64,000 nt of DNA, taken from the NCBI GenBank assembly GCA_010672825.2, contig JAAHFU020000008.1, positions 1 through 64,000 on the forward strand, read 5' to 3'. This document shows positions 2,718 through 13,944 of this stretch, piece by piece. How positions within the stretch are numbered: the stretch's first letter is position 1; every line of letters starts with the position of its first letter. A program made the translations under genes and the position numbers. The DNA comes from Leptolyngbya sp. SIO1E4. GTDB taxonomy: Bacteria > Cyanobacteriota > Cyanobacteriia > Phormidesmidales > Phormidesmidaceae. The notes beneath the pieces are model-generated. The model was given only the letters and a program-made list of their open reading frames with translations. It did no database searches and was not told the origin of the DNA.

Positions 2718-2955
2718 AGAAAATTTAAGGGAAGGCCATCTAGCTTGGGGATAATTTTAACGAACAGGACTTACGGAGTTGATCATTTTGGTTTTTGTCA
2801 GTCATTTGTCTCAGTATCTGAATGCAGGCTGAGAATATCCGTCGGCTTTTTCTGAAAATTCAGGAAATCAACTCTTAACTGGGCATCAGGGCAGCATCAG
2901 GGGCACTGGCAAAGATGGGCTCAAGATGATTGATCCTTGTCAGGAGCCCTTCGCC

Positions 2956-3465
2956 ATGCATAAAGCCAACATGATTGCCTATGTCATCCTTTCTGGGGCG
3001 GCTCCCATCCTGGTGCTGATGAACAGCCTGTTCGGCACAGAAGCCGCATCTTCGCCAGCCACGGTGCAACCCTTGCAATCTATGCGGTTAATACAGCGCC
3101 TGATGAACTCTGGGCCTAAAAACCTAGTCACAGCCGATGACCTAATGCCGGAGGTCTCTGTCCCTTATCCCCATGCCCGCATCGTCATCGAAAACCACCA
3201 AGCTTTTTTGGAGTTTTATAGTCCATTCAGTATGGCAGCGCAAACGCCAAACCTACTCCTTGTTTTGGACACAGCCCCCGTACCCAGTGATACCTTTTTC
3301 CTGAGCGATCGCCACCCTATCATCAGCAAACTTCAACTTGAAGCCGGAAAACAACGGTACCCTATTCCCGCTTCTGTTGAGGTGTCTCAGTATCTTTCTT
3401 TGGTGATTTGGTGCCCTGAGTCCAATGCCATTATGGGCTACGCACCCCTCACCCTTGAGATTTAA
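2956..3465 (+). CDS. DM13-like domain protein, secreted or lipid-anchored
   Basis: I place the start at 2956 rather than the in-frame ATG at 2926, because AGGAG at 2942-2946 is well spaced for it and the product then begins with a signal sequence (MHKANMIAYVILSG, ending near residues 22-30). The rest resembles an electron-transfer DM13 domain: ARIVIENHQAFLEFYSPF, then NLLLVLD, and the family-like ending YLSLVIWCPESNAIMGYAPL with its conserved tryptophan-cysteine pair. It would act in the periplasm or at the membrane. It is followed 50 bases later by the MscS gene on the same strand. The domain assignment is from pattern memory and moderately sure; the function is unknown. Confidence 0.7.
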   Translation: MHKANMIAYVILSGAAPILVLMNSLFGTEAASSPATVQPLQSMRLIQRLMNSGPKNLVTADDLMPEVSVPYPHARIVIENHQAFLEFYSPFSMAAQTPNLLLVLDTAPVPSDTFFLSDRHPIISKLQLEAGKQRYPIPASVEVSQYLSLVIWCPESNAIMGYAPLTLEI

Positions 3466-5873: not shown

Positions 5874-6060
5874 CTTTTTCAAGGCAAGCTTGAAAAAGCC
5901 AGGATTCCATTTTCTATTTTCAAAGTTATCCCAGCAACCTTCCTCTTCCAAAAAATACGAAAAATCCATACAAAAAGCAGGCTTTCAGTCTTTCAAAAGA
6001 GATAGGCACCCTAGATTTCGGATAACAAATTCTTTAGATAAAAAATTCTTTAAAAGATCA

Positions 6061-6081
6061 GGCTCCCCAAAAAGGGGAGCC
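6061..6081 (-). terminator. Terminator-like hairpin downstream of the double-glycine peptide gene
   Basis: GGCTCCCC, loop AAAAA, GGGGAGCC: a perfect 8-bp GC-rich stem. On the minus strand it lies 48 bases after the stop codon of the 6130-6300 peptide gene and is followed by TGATCTTTTAAAG. The position supports a real, short minus-strand transcript. Confidence 0.6.
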
Positions 6082-6129
6082 CACAATATCTAGATATGAC
6101 TACATCATTAAGCGGACAACACCCAACAA

Positions 6130-6300
6130 TTAGTCCTTATCCAGGTTTTCGCGACGAAGCTCATCCAGGTTAGAAGCATCCTTATCCAGGTTTTCGCGAC
6201 GAAGCTGGTCGAAATTCACACCCCCAGAAACTTCTTTAAGCTGATCATCAGAAAGCTGCTCATCCTTTTTAGCTGCATCTTTTGCTGATTCCTGATTCAT
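6130..6300 (-). CDS. Double-glycine leader peptide precursor with duplicated core (putative secreted peptide)
   Basis: A complete 56-residue frame from ATG (6300) to TAA (6130), with GGAG 11 bases upstream of the ATG. Residues 1-27 form a leader: acidic and basic start (MNQESAKDAAKKDEQ), then LSDDQLKEVSGG, the classic double-glycine motif cut by C39 peptidases. The 29-residue core after G27 carries LRRENLDKD twice (33-41 and 48-56), preceded by DQ or DE, with a 15-residue period. It has no Cys or Thr and one Ser, is highly charged and probably helical. A bidentate C39 exporter is encoded 2.3 kb away on the other strand, and a hairpin follows the stop. The leader and neighbours make secretion very likely. 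The activity (signal, biofilm factor or bacteriocin) is unknown, and I do not recognise the core from any described family. Confidence 0.85.
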   Translation of the reverse strand: MNQESAKDAAKKDEQLSDDQLKEVSGGVNFDQLRRENLDKDASNLDELRRENLDKD

Positions 6301-6816: not shown

Positions 6817-7866
6817 ATGGCAGACACATTACTGCGGGAGCTGACCAACACCGATTTAGACTGGATGATTACCAGCGGTGAACGAGAGCGATTGCCAGCA
6901 GGCCAGCAATTACTTGGCTCCCAGCAGGCTCAAGACGTTATCTATGTCTTGATTGAAGGGCGATTAGGGTTAAATTTTTTTTCGGAAACGACAGCGGCTA
7001 ATCAGAGCTCTCCCATTGATGAATTAGCTCAAGGGGAAATTATTGGCGCAAGCGCGTTATTTGATATACCCGAAATGGCTGTTTTCAGGACGCTAGAGCC
7101 CTCTATGGTGATGTCTTTGCCGGTGGTCAAATTGCAGGCAAAAATGGCCGAAGATATCGCCTTCGCTGCTCACTTTTATCGAGCGATCGCGGTGATGCTT
7201 TCGAATCGCCTACGCCGCATTTTCGAGCATCCTGATCGTATTCAGTTTTGGGGAGAACGCTCAACCAAAGAAGTGATGTCTGTATTTAGCGAACTGCGGG
7301 ATAGCGATGTGGATTGGTTAGTGTCCTTCGGTCAAACCGAGACAATTACCGCCGACCAGGTTTTGCTGCAGGCTGGTCGCCCCGTCGATGCCCTCTACAT
7401 TTTGTTGGATGGCCAACTGTCGATTTCGGCCCCAGAAGGAGCATTCAACCCCCTGTATCTCTGTTTTTCAGGCTTAGAGAACAGTACCCGTAACCAAAAA
7501 GCCTTTGCCACCCTCTCAAAAGGCGGCATGCCGGGAATCATCTCATTTCTTGATTTCCAACCTTTACCTGTCACGATTCGGGCATTCAATGAAGTTCTGG
7601 TATTTGCCGTACCGCGTCAGACACTGGTGACTAAATTGCAGGTAGACGATAGCTTTGCCTCCCGGTTTTATCGGGTCATTGCGATTCAAATCTTGGAGCT
7701 GTTACAGACCGTGAGCACCCGGTTGGTTGATGCAGACACCCTGGGGAGCACTGAGAGTGAAGATCTGGATGAAGAATTAGACGTGGATGACCTGCAGCAA
7801 ATGTCTGAGGGGGCTAAAAAGTTCAACTGGATGCTGTCGCAGTTAGGGGTTGCTCGCCATGGCTGA
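6817..7866 (+). CDS. Protein with two cyclic-nucleotide-binding-like domains, NHLM export cassette
   Basis: 349 residues with two CRP-like beta-barrel domains, about 1-140 and 155-300. Each has the sequence rhythm of the fold (first: LPAGQQLLGSQQAQDVIYVLIEGRLGL; second: VLLQAGRPVDALYILLDGQLSI). The phosphate-binding cassette is degenerate in both: the first reads GEIIGASALFDIPEMAVFR and the second lacks the usual Arg-Ala pair, so true cyclic nucleotide binding is doubtful. The C-terminal tail is acidic. The stop codon overlaps the next gene's start by 8 bases, indicating translational coupling. Similar proteins accompany NHLM-type peptide exporters. The role is probably regulatory or as a subunit of the exporter. 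Confidence 0.8.
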   Translation: MADTLLRELTNTDLDWMITSGERERLPAGQQLLGSQQAQDVIYVLIEGRLGLNFFSETTAANQSSPIDELAQGEIIGASALFDIPEMAVFRTLEPSMVMSLPVVKLQAKMAEDIAFAAHFYRAIAVMLSNRLRRIFEHPDRIQFWGERSTKEVMSVFSELRDSDVDWLVSFGQTETITADQVLLQAGRPVDALYILLDGQLSISAPEGAFNPLYLCFSGLENSTRNQKAFATLSKGGMPGIISFLDFQPLPVTIRAFNEVLVFAVPRQTLVTKLQVDDSFASRFYRVIAIQILELLQTVSTRLVDADTLGSTESEDLDEELDVDDLQQMSEGAKKFNWMLSQLGVARHG

Positions 7867-8437
7867 CAAAGATACCCAGAGCCTATTTCGTCAAGAATCG
7901 CTGGAGCGGCTGTCGTCCCCAGAGCGGTTAGATGAACTCATGACGATTGTTAACCTCAAAGCCTGGCTACCCTTGGGCACGATTGGGGTCTTGCTAGGAT
8001 GCGGGCTGATTTGGAGCCTGATCGGGCGTATTCCTGTGACCACCAGTGGACGAGGCCTGTTGGTGCAAAACGATGCTTCTGCCAATGAATTGGTCGCGCT
8101 GCTGTACTTCGAAAACCGCTATCGGGGGCAGTTTCGTCCCGGTATGCCGGTGGTGCTGATGCCTGAAACCCTGCTGATTTATAACGAACCTGGCATCCAG
8201 GCAGAAGTCGTAAAAGTGATGGAACCCCCGGCATTAACCCTGGGGCAAGTACAACAGGGAGACAGCACGGCGGCGAATGACCCTCAACAGGGACGCTTAG
8301 AAGTCTTGGCTCAGCTCTCACCGATGGATCACGCGATGCCCCCCGACACCATGGTTCCTGGGGTTGAGTTAGAAGGGCGCGTCACCCTGGAGGAGCGAGC
8401 CCCCATCACCTTTGTCTTTCCGTTTTTGGCCCAGTAG
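7859..8437 (+). CDS. HlyD-like secretion adaptor, NHLM peptide export type, short form
   Basis: 192 residues from the ATG at 7859; an upstream TTG at 7850 is in frame but less likely. The start LFRQESLERLSSPERLDELM and the single membrane segment (about 35-58) followed by a Gly-rich GRGLLV turn are typical of the NHLM-system HlyD family. The periplasmic part is short and lacks the long coiled-coil hairpin of classical adaptors, so it probably does not bridge to an outer membrane channel by itself. Overlap with the preceding gene and position before the two ABC exporters place it in the same secretion machine. A 200-base gap containing an inverted family A repeat follows. Confidence 0.8.
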   Translation: MADKDTQSLFRQESLERLSSPERLDELMTIVNLKAWLPLGTIGVLLGCGLIWSLIGRIPVTTSGRGLLVQNDASANELVALLYFENRYRGQFRPGMPVVLMPETLLIYNEPGIQAEVVKVMEPPALTLGQVQQGDSTAANDPQQGRLEVLAQLSPMDHAMPPDTMVPGVELEGRVTLEERAPITFVFPFLAQ

Positions 8438-8639: not shown

Positions 8640-10859
8640 ATGCTGATTTTCCCAAAGTCATTGACCCACTCAACCCCTAAACGGGTGAAAACCCCCACCG
8701 TACTGCAGATGGAAGCGGTGGAATGTGGAGCAGCAGCCTTAGGGAAAATCCTGGGTTATTACAGCAAAACTGTTCCACTGGCTGAGTTGCGACAGGCCTG
8801 CGGCGTCTCCCGAGATGGGGTGACCGCAGCCAGCGTCCTCAAAGCTGCCCGTAACTATGGGCTAGAAGCCAAGGGTTTTAAGAAAAGCCTGGAAAGAGTC
8901 CTGCAGTTAGCGCCGCCGTTTATTGTGTTTTGGCACTTTAATCACTTCCTGGTGGTGGAAGGCAGCGATGCTAAGTGGGTGTATTTAAATGACCCCGCAA
9001 CCGGGCCGCGGCGAGTCACCTACGAGGAGTTTGATGAGGGCTACACCGGCATCGCTCTGACCTTTTCACCCGGGGAAACGTTTCAACCGGGAGGGCAAAA
9101 AGGGAGCCTGGTGCAATCGTTGTGGCAGCGGTTGCGCAGTTCTTCGGGGGCGCTGCTGCTGGCCATTCTGGCAGGGCTGTTTTTGGTGTTGCCAGCCCTG
9201 GTGCTGCCAGCCCTCAGCCGCATTTTTGTGGATTCCGTACTGATCGGGGGTCGGCTGGAATGGCTGCCATACCTCCTGGTAGGGCTTTTACTGACGGCGC
9301 TTGTGCAGGGCTGGTTAACGGCCTTGCAGCGGCGATATTTGCGATCGCTCCGCATCAAACTTGCTGTGGGCATGACCAGTCGCTTTGTCTGGCACGTTTT
9401 GCGATTGCCCGTGGGCTTCTACGCTCAGCGGTTTGCGGGTGAAATCGCCAGCCGCATCCGCCTCAACGACGAAGTGTCAGCCGTTCTGTCAGGACGGCTG
9501 ACCACCACCGTCATCAGTCTAGTGTTGCTGCTGTTCTATGGCTTGGCCATGGCCCAGTATGACCTGCTGCTCACGGCCATCGTCGTTGGGTTTGCGGTGG
9601 TGAATGTTGTGATGCTGCAGTGGATCGGTCGCCAGCGGGTAGACGCAAACTTACGGTTAGCCCAAGAACAGGGTAAGGCCGCTGGGGTGGCGATCGCTGG
9701 GTTGCAAAACATGGAAACCCTCAAAGCCTCCGGTCTGGAGTCTGACTTTTTTGCCCGCTGGGCAGGCTATTACACCAAATCCATCAATGCCCAACAAGAT
9801 CTGGGCCTCACTAACCAAGTCCTCGGCATTTTGCCATCCCTGTTGTCTGCCCTCACGAATCTCGCCCTGCTGGTGGTTGGCGGCTGGCGTGTCATTAACG
9901 GGGACCTCAGCATTGGGATGCTCGTTGCCTTTCAGCTTTTGATGGTTAGCTTTCAACGCCCCGTCAACAATCTCGTTCGCTTTGCCAGCACCTTACAAAC
10001 CTTGCAGGGCAACCTCCAACGCCTAGACGATGTGTTGGGAAATTCGGTGGATATGCAGCTTGTAACCGACGGGGAGCCCAAACCTCAGGCAGCCCAAAAC
10101 GTCGCTTCCCTTGCCTCACTTCCCTTGCATCGTCTCAGCGGTGCCATTAGCCTCCACAATCTGTCCTTCGGCTACCATCCCCTGGAGCCCCCTCTGATCG
10201 AAAATCTCAATCTGACGATTCAGCCGGGTCAACGCGTTGCCTTTGTGGGCGGTAGCGGCTCTGGCAAGTCTACCCTGGCGAAACTCATTGCGGGGCTATA
10301 CGAATCGAGATCGGGAGAAATTTACTTCGATGACATTCCCCGCACCCAGCTTCCCCACGATGTCTTGACCAACTCCATCGCCGTGGTCGAGCAAGACATC
10401 CTTATCTTCGAGGGATCTATCCGTGACAACCTGACCCTGTGGGATACCACTATTCCTGAGGTAGATCTACGACGAGCCGCTCAGGATGCCGCCATTGAAG
10501 ATGTGATCTTATCCCAGCCCTATGGCTACGATGCCCAACTGTTGGAAGGCGCCTCTAACCTCAGTGGCGGTCAGCGCCAGCGCCTAGAAATTGCCCGAGC
10601 CCTGGTGGGCAACCCCTCGATTTTGATTCTGGATGAAGCCACCAGCGCCCTGGATACAGAAACCGAAAAGCGCATTGACCAAAATTTACGGCGGCGCGGC
10701 TGCACCTGCCTGATTGTGGCGCATCGTCTCAGCACTATCCGCGACTGCGATCAAATCCTAGTGCTCGATCGCGGTCAGGTTGTTCAACGTGGCACCCACG
10801 AAAGCCTTTGGGAAGAAGGTGGGCAGTATGCACGATTAATTCGCAGTGAAGGGGGATAA
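8640..10859 (+). CDS. NHLM-type peptidase-containing ABC exporter (C39 peptidase, membrane and ATPase domains)
   Basis: 739 residues. An N-terminal C39 peptidase (about 18-140) shows the catalytic set C29 (MEAVECGAAAL), H102 (HFNHFLVV) and D118 (YLNDP). Six membrane segments follow (about 160-430), then the nucleotide-binding domain with Walker A GGSGSGKST near 536-545, signature LSGGQRQRL near 639, Walker B ILILDEATSALD near 658-670 and a switch histidine (VAHRLST). All catalytic residues are intact, so it should cut leaders after Gly-Gly and export the core. The obvious substrate is the divergent peptide at 6130-6300. I see no convincing ribosome site before the ATG, which follows a repeat. 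Confidence 0.93.
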   Translation: MLIFPKSLTHSTPKRVKTPTVLQMEAVECGAAALGKILGYYSKTVPLAELRQACGVSRDGVTAASVLKAARNYGLEAKGFKKSLERVLQLAPPFIVFWHFNHFLVVEGSDAKWVYLNDPATGPRRVTYEEFDEGYTGIALTFSPGETFQPGGQKGSLVQSLWQRLRSSSGALLLAILAGLFLVLPALVLPALSRIFVDSVLIGGRLEWLPYLLVGLLLTALVQGWLTALQRRYLRSLRIKLAVGMTSRFVWHVLRLPVGFYAQRFAGEIASRIRLNDEVSAVLSGRLTTTVISLVLLLFYGLAMAQYDLLLTAIVVGFAVVNVVMLQWIGRQRVDANLRLAQEQGKAAGVAIAGLQNMETLKASGLESDFFARWAGYYTKSINAQQDLGLTNQVLGILPSLLSALTNLALLVVGGWRVINGDLSIGMLVAFQLLMVSFQRPVNNLVRFASTLQTLQGNLQRLDDVLGNSVDMQLVTDGEPKPQAAQNVASLASLPLHRLSGAISLHNLSFGYHPLEPPLIENLNLTIQPGQRVAFVGGSGSGKSTLAKLIAGLYESRSGEIYFDDIPRTQLPHDVLTNSIAVVEQDILIFEGSIRDNLTLWDTTIPEVDLRRAAQDAAIEDVILSQPYGYDAQLLEGASNLSGGQRQRLEIARALVGNPSILILDEATSALDTETEKRIDQNLRRRGCTCLIVAHRLSTIRDCDQILVLDRGQVVQRGTHESLWEEGGQYARLIRSEGG

Positions 10860-11007: not shown

Positions 11008-13944
11008 ATGAATCCGCAGATAATCGCACCCCCAACTTGCCAACGCACCATTACGGCTAATGAGCCGCTGCTGCTGACGGATCCGTCTAACATCTGGCAA
11101 GTGAAATCTGGGAAGGTGGCGATTTTTGCAGTGGCGATCGCCCAGGGGGCACCGGTGGGGGAACGGGTCTTCCTATTCACAGTCGTAGCGGGTGAAGTCC
11201 TGTTTGGCGCAGATATTCATGCAGAAACTGGCTTAGGGCTGATGGCCGTAGCCGTAGAACCGACCAACCTTTCCGCGTTACCCCTGAGCGAAACTGACGA
11301 AACCGGCTGCCCTACCGATCTGCTCAAGCAAATCATTGATCCCTGGATTCATCATTTAGGCCAGGTCGAGGGGATGCCCAAAACAGCTCAGACAGGCATC
11401 GTACCCGACATTCACTACATTTCTCTGACCTCTGGGCAAGTAGGGCGTCCGCCTCAGGGCGAGGTGTCTTGGGTTCGTATGCAGCAGGGGACTGCCTCCT
11501 GGATGGGGAATCCAACCTTTCCACTAATGCCAGAATTAGGCTGTTTCCCCCTCGGTCACAGCACCTTTCTACAAGCTCAAGATCACATTGAGTTCTTTAT
11601 CCGTCCAACCGCTGAAGTCAGGCACCGCAAAATTCTGATTCGGGGGCTGGCCCAGCTACATCGCTATTTTTTCAGTACGCTAGGCCTCATCGAGGCGCGA
11701 CACCAACGCCTCAGCCTCAGACGCTTTCGGCAACGACAACAGCTCAATCAAGAGGTTACTCAAAAAGTTGTGCGCAGCCTCGCGGGCGTGCTAGACGGAA
11801 GCGATCGCTGCCCAGACACCGATTCTCCTTTACTGGCGGCTGCGGGGGCGGTGGGCAAAGCGCTAGGGGTGACGATTCAGCCCCCAGCCCCTTCCGAAAA
11901 TCCTGCCCGCACGCAGGAACCGTTAGACGCGATCGCCCGGGCTTCCCAGCTGCGGCTGCGGCGAGTCCTGCTGCGGGGGCAATGGTGGCAAAAAGACAGC
12001 GGCCCATTAGTGGCTTACACCCGCGAAGATCGCCATCCAGTGGCCCTGTTACCCGTCAAGGGAAATCGCTATGAACTGTTTGATCCAGTAGGCATTAACG
12101 CTGAGGAGACTCTGCCTGATTCTCCCCCTAAAAGTGGGGCACTGCCTACCCGTCGCCCCGTAACCGAGTCCGTGGCTCGCCACCTCGATCCCGTTGCCTT
12201 TATTTTTTACCGTCCCCTCCCTGGCAGTGACCTGAATGCGCTCTCCTTGCTAAGGTTTGCTTTCCGGGGGCAGGGGCGAGACTGGCTGACGATCCTCCTG
12301 ACGGGCGTGGCGGCAACCCTGATTGGCATGTTGGTGCCCCAGGCCACAGCAGCCTTGGTGGATACGGTGGTGCCCTATGGCGATCGCCCCCTGCTGATTC
12401 AAATGGGGCTGGGGCTGTTAGCTGCTGCCTTTGGCGCTGCCAGCTTTCAATTGGCCCAAGCGATCGCCACTATGCGGGTTGAAACCCGCTCCGATGCTCA
12501 CCTACAAGCCGCCGTGTGGGACCGCTTACTAAAGCTGCGGACGTCCTTCTACCGTGAGTACGCCACTGGTGATCTAAATTCGCGGGTGTCGAGTATTAGC
12601 GCCATTCGCCGCAAGCTCAGTGGCAGCGCGCTGCAGGGGCTCTTTGCCGGAGCTTTTGCGCTGCTAAATCTAGGGCTGTTGTTTTACTACAGTCCGCCAT
12701 TGGCTGTTGTCGCTCTGCTAGTAGCCCTGCTGATCATGGCGGTCACAGTAGCTTCAGGACTTGTCCTAGTGCGCAAGTATCGCCCTTTGTTAGAAATACA
12801 AGGCAAGCTCTATGGGCTGGTAGTGCAGCTCATCAATGGGGTCTCCAAACTCCGCATCGCCGGAGCCGAAGCGCGGGCGTTTGCCGCCTGGGGGCAGCGC
12901 TATGGACAGCAGCTTCGCCTCACCCTCAGCACCCAACAGTTAGAAGACGCCGTCGATGTCTTCAACACCGTATTGCCCATTTTCACAACGCTGCTTTTAT
13001 TTTGGCTTGCCAGTCAGTTCCTGGGGAGTGCCGACGGCACTGGCTTCTCAACCGGCACCTTTCTAGCGTTTTCCGTGGCCTTTGGGACGTTTATTTCTGG
13101 CGCCACCAGCCTCAGCAACACCCTGGTCGCGCTGCTAGATGTAGTACCCCTGTGGCAGCGGGCTCGCCCCATCCTTCAAGCAGAACCAGAAGTTAACCTC
13201 ACCCAAGCCGACCCTGGTCAGCTATCTGGTGCCTTAACAGTTGACCGGGTCAGCTTTCGATATAAGTCAGACGGGCCGCTAATTCTAGAAAATGCCAGTT
13301 TTGAAGCCAAGTCCGGGGAATTTATTGCCTTAATTGGCCCTTCTGGCTCCGGCAAATCCACGGCCATGCGGCTGTTATTGGGGTTCGATACGCCTGAATC
13401 TGGCAACGTTTACTACGACGGCCAAGACTTGACCGGACTAGACGTTGTCGCGGTTCGGCGCCAGTTCGGCGTGGTGCTACAAACCAGTCGTCTCAGTGCC
13501 GGGTCTATCTTTGAGAATCTGGCAGGGGGCGCGCTCATCTCCCTAGAAGAGGCTTGGGATGCTGCCGAAAAAGCCGGACTAGCCGACGACGTTCGGGCCA
13601 TGCCCATGCAAATGCACACAGTCGTCAGCGAAGGGGGTAGCAACCTTTCCGGTGGTCAGCGACAGCGGCTCTTGATTGCCCGTGCCCTGGCCATCAACCC
13701 CAAAATTATGCTGATGGATGAAGCCACCAGCGCCCTCGACAACCGAACCCAGGCGATTGTGACCGAAAGTTTGGATCGGCTCAACGTCACCCGTGTCGTC
13801 ATTGCTCACCGCCTCAGCACTATTCGCAATGCCGATCGCATCTATGTCATTGAAGCGGGTCGGGTGGTACAGCAGGGCACCTTTGATGAATTAGCCAGAC
13901 AACCAGGGCTGTTCGCCCAACTCATTAAGCGCCAGATGACCTAA
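11008..13944 (+). CDS. NHLM-type ABC exporter without peptidase, long N-terminal region
   Basis: 978 residues. The first 400 or so have no C39 peptidase; they start with a stretch resembling a CNB-like sensor fold (PLLLTDPSNIWQVKSGKVAIFAV, VFLFTVVAGEVLFGADI). Membrane segments span about 430-700. The ATPase domain has Walker A GPSGSGKST near 775, signature LSGGQRQRL near 880, Walker B IMLMDEATSALD near 900 and VIAHRLST. This is the second ABC protein of NHLM peptide export systems. TAGGAGG lies 14 bases before the ATG. The gap from the C39 exporter is about 150 bases with no other gene. It may form a heteromeric exporter with the C39 protein or handle another step; which one is not visible. 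Confidence 0.9.
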   Translation: MNPQIIAPPTCQRTITANEPLLLTDPSNIWQVKSGKVAIFAVAIAQGAPVGERVFLFTVVAGEVLFGADIHAETGLGLMAVAVEPTNLSALPLSETDETGCPTDLLKQIIDPWIHHLGQVEGMPKTAQTGIVPDIHYISLTSGQVGRPPQGEVSWVRMQQGTASWMGNPTFPLMPELGCFPLGHSTFLQAQDHIEFFIRPTAEVRHRKILIRGLAQLHRYFFSTLGLIEARHQRLSLRRFRQRQQLNQEVTQKVVRSLAGVLDGSDRCPDTDSPLLAAAGAVGKALGVTIQPPAPSENPARTQEPLDAIARASQLRLRRVLLRGQWWQKDSGPLVAYTREDRHPVALLPVKGNRYELFDPVGINAEETLPDSPPKSGALPTRRPVTESVARHLDPVAFIFYRPLPGSDLNALSLLRFAFRGQGRDWLTILLTGVAATLIGMLVPQATAALVDTVVPYGDRPLLIQMGLGLLAAAFGAASFQLAQAIATMRVETRSDAHLQAAVWDRLLKLRTSFYREYATGDLNSRVSSISAIRRKLSGSALQGLFAGAFALLNLGLLFYYSPPLAVVALLVALLIMAVTVASGLVLVRKYRPLLEIQGKLYGLVVQLINGVSKLRIAGAEARAFAAWGQRYGQQLRLTLSTQQLEDAVDVFNTVLPIFTTLLLFWLASQFLGSADGTGFSTGTFLAFSVAFGTFISGATSLSNTLVALLDVVPLWQRARPILQAEPEVNLTQADPGQLSGALTVDRVSFRYKSDGPLILENASFEAKSGEFIALIGPSGSGKSTAMRLLLGFDTPESGNVYYDGQDLTGLDVVAVRRQFGVVLQTSRLSAGSIFENLAGGALISLEEAWDAAEKAGLADDVRAMPMQMHTVVSEGGSNLSGGQRQRLLIARALAINPKIMLMDEATSALDNRTQAIVTESLDRLNVTRVVIAHRLSTIRNADRIYVIEAGRVVQQGTFDELARQPGLFAQLIKRQMT

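Follow-up and report, generated by a model that had tools for sequence, protein, structure and literature searches.

A double-glycine peptide beside a C39 export cassette in Leptolyngbya shares its core with the repeats of Sec-type secreted proteins

Leptolyngbya sp. SIO1E4 encodes a small peptide with a double-glycine (GG) leader next to a C39-type export cassette, and the repeat unit of its core recurs in at least nine Sec-type secreted proteins that this genome also encodes. Since peptide cores and Sec repeats match in type in three cyanobacterial groups, joint action outside the cell is the reading we consider most likely: one extracellular module would be exported by two routes, with types matched, and would act together outside the cell, probably in a matrix or sheath. 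We put the probability of this reading at roughly 0.45. Diverse cyanobacteria encode GG peptides, and according to excerpts of the 2016 study of the EbfG proteins no work before that one had addressed their functions (PMC4997328). Because the peptide described here has matched secreted proteins bearing the same module, both the partner and the compartment of such a cargo become testable. The three natural types provide built-in specificity controls, and the repeats are a clear case of tandem copies that are kept at the protein level while their synonymous codons differ about as much as codons drawn at random.

The peptide gene lies on the minus strand of the window, i.e. the whole stretch of DNA that was analysed (64,000 nucleotides), and its frame translates as MNQESAKDAAKKDEQLSDDQLKEVSGG|VNFDQLRRENLDKDASNLDELRRENLDKD. 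A GGAG sequence ends 11 bases 5' of the ATG, and an alternative TTG start, also open, is found two codons further 5'. The leader reaches 15.7 bits on TIGR01847, exactly the cut-off, and is conserved, which places it among GG leaders of the C39 type. The core contains no Cys or Thr and a single Ser, so that the residues of a lanthipeptide are absent, as the preliminary description had pointed out; the frame, the leader, the 29-residue core, its two LRRENLDKD blocks and the downstream hairpin are likewise present as it had described them (Table 1). Structure prediction gives a mean pLDDT of 65.5, with helix at low confidence. In Pfam the peptide has a single match at E 5 and no family describes the core, and the CTB family bacteriocin model NF038167 gives 15.1 bits, under its cut-off of 32. 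The peptide is real beyond chance, being conserved in relatives and constrained in its core. Over 13 orthologues (78 pairs), all single-core and cassette-linked, with multi-core and orphan peptides left out, pN/pS is 0.10 for the core and 0.17 for the 13 leader residues before the cut, at a pS of ~0.7. Although synonymous change is close to saturation, the core is conserved, and it is almost invariant across genera.

Table 1. Features of the peptide gene and the divergent export cassette in the window.
Feature	Position	Strand	Basis
GG-leader peptide gene	6130..6300	-	56 aa plus stop; orthologues found
Leader, residues 1-27, LSDDQLKEVSGG at its end	6220..6300	-	TIGR01847; conserved in A2
Core, 29 residues, two repeat units (two LRRENLDKD blocks)	6133..6219	-	translation, constraint
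Terminator-like hairpin, 10-pair stem	6059..6083	-	0.5 expected per shuffle
Bacteriocin-type transport-associated protein, two cyclic-nucleotide-binding stretches	6817..7866	+	TIGR03896 212.6 bits, cut-off 161; PF00027
Mini-HlyD, 195 aa from first listed start	7850..8437	+	TIGR03794 74.9 bits, under cut-off 156.2
C39 peptidase/permease/ATPase	8640..10859	+	TIGR03796 1113 bits, cut-off 853; PF03412
Second ABC permease/ATPase, without peptidase	11008..13944	+	TIGR03797 984 bits

The exporter that had been placed opposite the peptide was recovered as four genes: a TIGR03896 protein, a short HlyD, a C39 ABC protein and a second ABC protein. In the C39 protein Cys, His and Asp are present, which we take to be the C39-type motif. 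Against the models of the NHLP three-gene cassette both ABC proteins score above their cut-offs, whereas the HlyD falls short; it measures ~190 residues in the lineage of the window. A second NHLM-type cassette is found in the same genome (contig C5, ~541-549 kb) with a longer HlyD frame of 490 residues, which aligns with the mini-HlyD over residues 4-70 only, and no core-type peptide was seen there. When six flanking genes of the window were used as probes, a DM13-domain protein (2926-3465) was alone in recurring (2 of 16 stretches); L065 and L066 have a relative close to the GG peptide.

Linkage of peptide and exporter extends well beyond the window. The type-A leader-plus-core peptide is present in 17 of the 63 genomes of the order. 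A mini-HlyD that matches over almost its whole length with 66% identity or more is found in 14, every one of which has the peptide. A fifteenth genome, G036, has a 74% mini-HlyD match truncated where the contig stops, and the GG peptide was not observed there. Peptide and cassette stand head to head in 16 genomes (the window, L080-L093 and L075), which are all those where the two share available DNA; in L083 only the edge of the cassette lies within the available stretch. Six GG-peptide loci in three genomes (L094-L099) show no cassette in the available DNA. Upstream DNA amounts to 9.8 kb in L094, 3.7 kb in L095, 6.3 kb in L098 and about 2.4 kb in L099, and is <0.7 kb in L096 and L097; with 2.3-9.8 kb free of cassette genes, the former four are taken as true orphan GG peptides. 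Cassette genes are present with no GG peptide in the contig-limited DNA of G042 and G005, and in G035 peptide and cassette are on different contigs. Genera g3 and g13 have a mini-HlyD 42-49% identical to that of the window. All six loci of genus g3 that contain both peptide and mini-HlyD (L177, L180, L181, L183, L184 and L185) have them head to head, with no further cassette gene detected in the stretch; the pair thus outlasts the cassette. Type-A precursors of three genomes (G032, G027 and G024) contain two pairs of units, the second of which is preceded by another leader-like stretch with a terminal Gly-Gly; this would fit cleavage by C39 at that site as well. The preliminary description had read the peptide as cargo of the cassette, and had named homologues near exporters in relatives and coding constraint among the checks on that reading; the head-to-head linkage in 16 genomes and the low pN/pS of the core bear it out on both counts. 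From its placement and leader, the peptide is very probably the cargo of the divergent C39/NHLM-type cassette. Given the leader, the C39 domain and the conserved head-to-head placement, we infer that it is cleaved after Gly-Gly and exported by the C39 protein.

The core is not confined to the peptide. A search of the own genome gave 50 matches, and FD[EQ]LRRENLDKD proved to be the repeat unit of nine Sec-type secreted proteins (L009-L017), with five to ten units each, three to ten of them exact, mostly arranged as 38-residue double units. Their N-termini start with MKR or MQR, followed by a hydrophobic stretch ending mostly in AxA, and the Sec route was assigned by reading this N-terminal sequence rather than with a signal-peptide program. 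A tenth Sec-type protein (L018, 2451-3032) carries a diverged repeat, FDQLRNENRxK. The earlier statement that the core belongs to no described family thus stands as regards named families, but the core is not a lone sequence. A lone unit, FDELRRENLDKD, was also observed in a 66-residue frame without signal peptide (L019:2415-2612), perhaps a relic. Multi-core precursors have an internal leader, AVSDDQLQGVSGGVN, to which the spacers between double units of type-A Sec proteins (e.g. AVVELQVKGVD) bear a slight resemblance; these spacers are perhaps leader remnants.

Repeat identity is held at the protein level, since synonymous codons differ like random draws. The 216 exact copies of FD[EQ]LRRENLDKD in 55 loci comprise 210 distinct DNA sequences. 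Synonymous mismatch is 0.514 within one Sec gene of the own genome, 0.531 between genes and 0.523 for random draws; between the core of the window and the Sec repeats of its genome it is 0.544. Recent DNA duplication as the source of repeat identity was rejected on these codons, although within the window gene the two blocks differ less (0.2). The repeats in the producer itself and the near invariance of the core across genera also bear on a possible role of the peptide as a bacteriocin, exported by the cassette, with the likeness to Sec repeats arising as mimicry or decoy. Leader and cassette are of the types that have been named bacteriocin systems (PMC3140520), but both observations weaken this option, and we regard it as very improbable.

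A scan of 84,980 species genomes returned 65 loci, all from cyanobacteria by title. Together with the own-genome loci there were 74 core-bearing frames, which a regular expression sorted into 52 Sec-type, 17 GG-type and 5 unclassified, with a contig-edge frame (L120) counted as Sec and the GG peptides of L084, L085, L092 and L093 missed. Sec proteins carry up to 14 core copies each. Among 95 genomes, matches occur in 24 of 57 of the own family and in none of 38 outside it; additional matches in G009, G025, G046 and G095 were left out of the reading. A scan of viral contigs with A2 gave 77 pattern matches, none of which was confirmed, and a viral origin was rejected; a plasmid search gave one weak match (E 0.9) under a kinase-family gene. 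The element CTCAG-four bases-CTCAG precedes 34 of 50 Sec-type genes and none of 17 GG genes. In type-A Sec loci such as L009-L017 it lies between about 120 and 50 bases 5' of the start; L018 lacks it. TATAG[AG]ACT is found ~50 bases before the start in many Sec genes. Judged from the shared upstream element, the Sec genes look like a common regulon. The two partners do not always occur together: in G030 and G099 the GG peptide is the only profile match genome-wide (one each), and G001, G014, G019 and G043 have Sec-type proteins and no mini-HlyD match.

The Sec protein structure is predicted at a mean pLDDT of 38.8, i.e. low confidence. Such a value (39 when rounded), and a core with 9 acidic and 6 basic among 29 residues, would suit protective or metal-binding periplasmic repeats, the Sec proteins being charged, poorly folded protectants and the peptide a short exported form of them. 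In our judgement, however, the near-exact conservation of a 12-mer exceeds what loosely disordered protectants need, which makes this explanation quite improbable.

Outside type A, the arrangement recurs with other cores. The linked GG peptide of genera g3 and g13 (type B) has a different core of like architecture, RLEHLDNQ(S/T)K. A search with it in 21 chosen genomes matched 15, GG self-matches included, with no match in G000, G022 and G051; Sec-type proteins with this repeat were found in six genomes by reading and in G037 and G023 by regular expression. A search of 388 genomes from the class revealed a full-length mini-HlyD beyond the own family as well, in f24 and f4. Of 20 such loci, 19 have a GG peptide in the stretch; 14 of these contain an additional internal Gly-Gly leader, and in 8 the core resembles LNERFDxARxENLDK (type C). 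This core recurs in Sec-type repeats in 7 of 8 genomes; it matches only its own peptide in G289 (83% complete), gives one marginal match in G059 and none in G000. The cassette-linked core of G051 recurs nowhere else in its genome, and G051 is the sole negative among the types tested for recurrence in Sec proteins, the EDGGF and PPSGD precursor types lying outside the test. A type-C relative reaches 33.2 bits on NF038167 (cut-off 32), and a type-B Sec protein narrowly passes DUF5388 (27.2 against 26.1).

In six loci of another family (L262, L265, L266, L267, L269 and L270), GG precursors are multi-core, with EDGG or HDSG cores and up to five leader-like stretches, and lie beside mini-HlyD cassettes, most between ABC1 and ABC2. 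Multi-core precursors would fit the main rival to a matrix or sheath role, in which several carriers would bear the 12-15-residue unit as a signal, the GG peptide leaving by C39 and the Sec proteins serving as polymeric precursors cut outside the cytoplasm. The cassette includes a cyclic-nucleotide-type protein, and several carriers of one motif have a precedent in PatS/PatX/HetN (PMC7761841). However, the presence of up to 14 copies per Sec protein, and of Sec spacers without an obvious cut site, is not what a signal would lead one to expect, and we consider this rival possible but rather unlikely.

Matching of types was assessed in 24 genomes with both partners (12 of type A, 5 of B and 7 of C). 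In all 24 the best-scoring Sec set belonged to the same type as the peptide, with overlapping scores for A and C; in only 8 did this set also come from the peptide's own genome. Permutation of labels within type gave p = 5e-5 (A 0.005, B 0.07, C 0.0004); as it ignores ancestry, the test shows co-divergence, not interaction. Peptide and Sec proteins might therefore have no joint function, the GG peptide having captured a Sec unit (or the reverse), and types matching because both follow the species tree. The occurrence of each partner alone in some genomes agrees with this. On the other hand, the matching is seen in each of three types, and the codons give no sign of recent exchange (0.544 versus 0.523 at random), so we rate a lack of joint function as improbable.

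In the joint reading that we favour, the neighbouring C39 exporter would cut the two-unit peptide after Gly-Gly and export it, while the same genome would secrete the same module through Sec as long tandem-repeat proteins. These multivalent proteins may form part of a matrix or sheath, and the short peptide could join, nucleate, cap or cross-link them, or compete for the same partner. A matrix or sheath is favoured because GG peptides of Synechococcus elongatus act in biofilm, one of them at the cell surface and matrix, and because the Sec proteins are multivalent. G030 and G099, G051, the Sec-only genomes, the orphan GG peptides, the few best scores from the own genome, a permutation that takes no account of ancestry, the low confidence of the structure models, and GG genes without the Sec upstream element count against joint action. 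More broadly, we tentatively suggest an undescribed extracellular repeat system, in which Sec polymers and a C39-exported peptide with its own mini-HlyD exporter keep a type-specific register in at least three groups through mutual or shared-partner binding.

Neither Pfam nor NCBIfam describes the core. NCBIfam TIGR02953, the pentapeptide MXKDX repeat protein, gives 43.3 bits (cut-off 41) for one type-A Sec protein; the units here have 12-15 residues and no Met, and the match is probably compositional. Five spellings of the core were found in no paper of the literature text, and the titles and abstract openings listed gave no description of the core, the Sec family or a two-route, type-matched arrangement. 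Taken by itself, as a GG peptide, the peptide belongs to a known kind. For HetC, a C39 exporter of Nostoc, no substrate is known according to an excerpt of PMC10986499. According to PMC7761841, PatS, PatX and HetN of Anabaena carry one pentapeptide motif, and they resemble the core here in that one short motif is found on different carriers in one cyanobacterium; the pentapeptide differs in acting on HetR, without tandem repeats of 12-15 residues. The layout of the cassette is that of the group V cyanobacterial bacteriocin clusters, which comprise the same four kinds of genes (HlyD, a two-CAP_ED protein, a C39 ABC protein and an extra peptidase-free ABC protein) according to the Results of Wang et al. 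2011 (PMC3140520). Cores of group V show very little conservation there, in contrast to the strong conservation here; the HlyD here has ~190 residues, and the comparison is one of gene kinds. The peptide also resembles EbfG1-4 of S. elongatus, small GG-leader proteins that need a C39 exporter and were shown to act in biofilm, with EbfG4 at the cell surface and matrix (PMC4997328, PMC9981879). This likeness is in export type only, and EbfG1-3 are amyloid-prone, whereas the core here is charged and predicted, at low confidence, to be helical.
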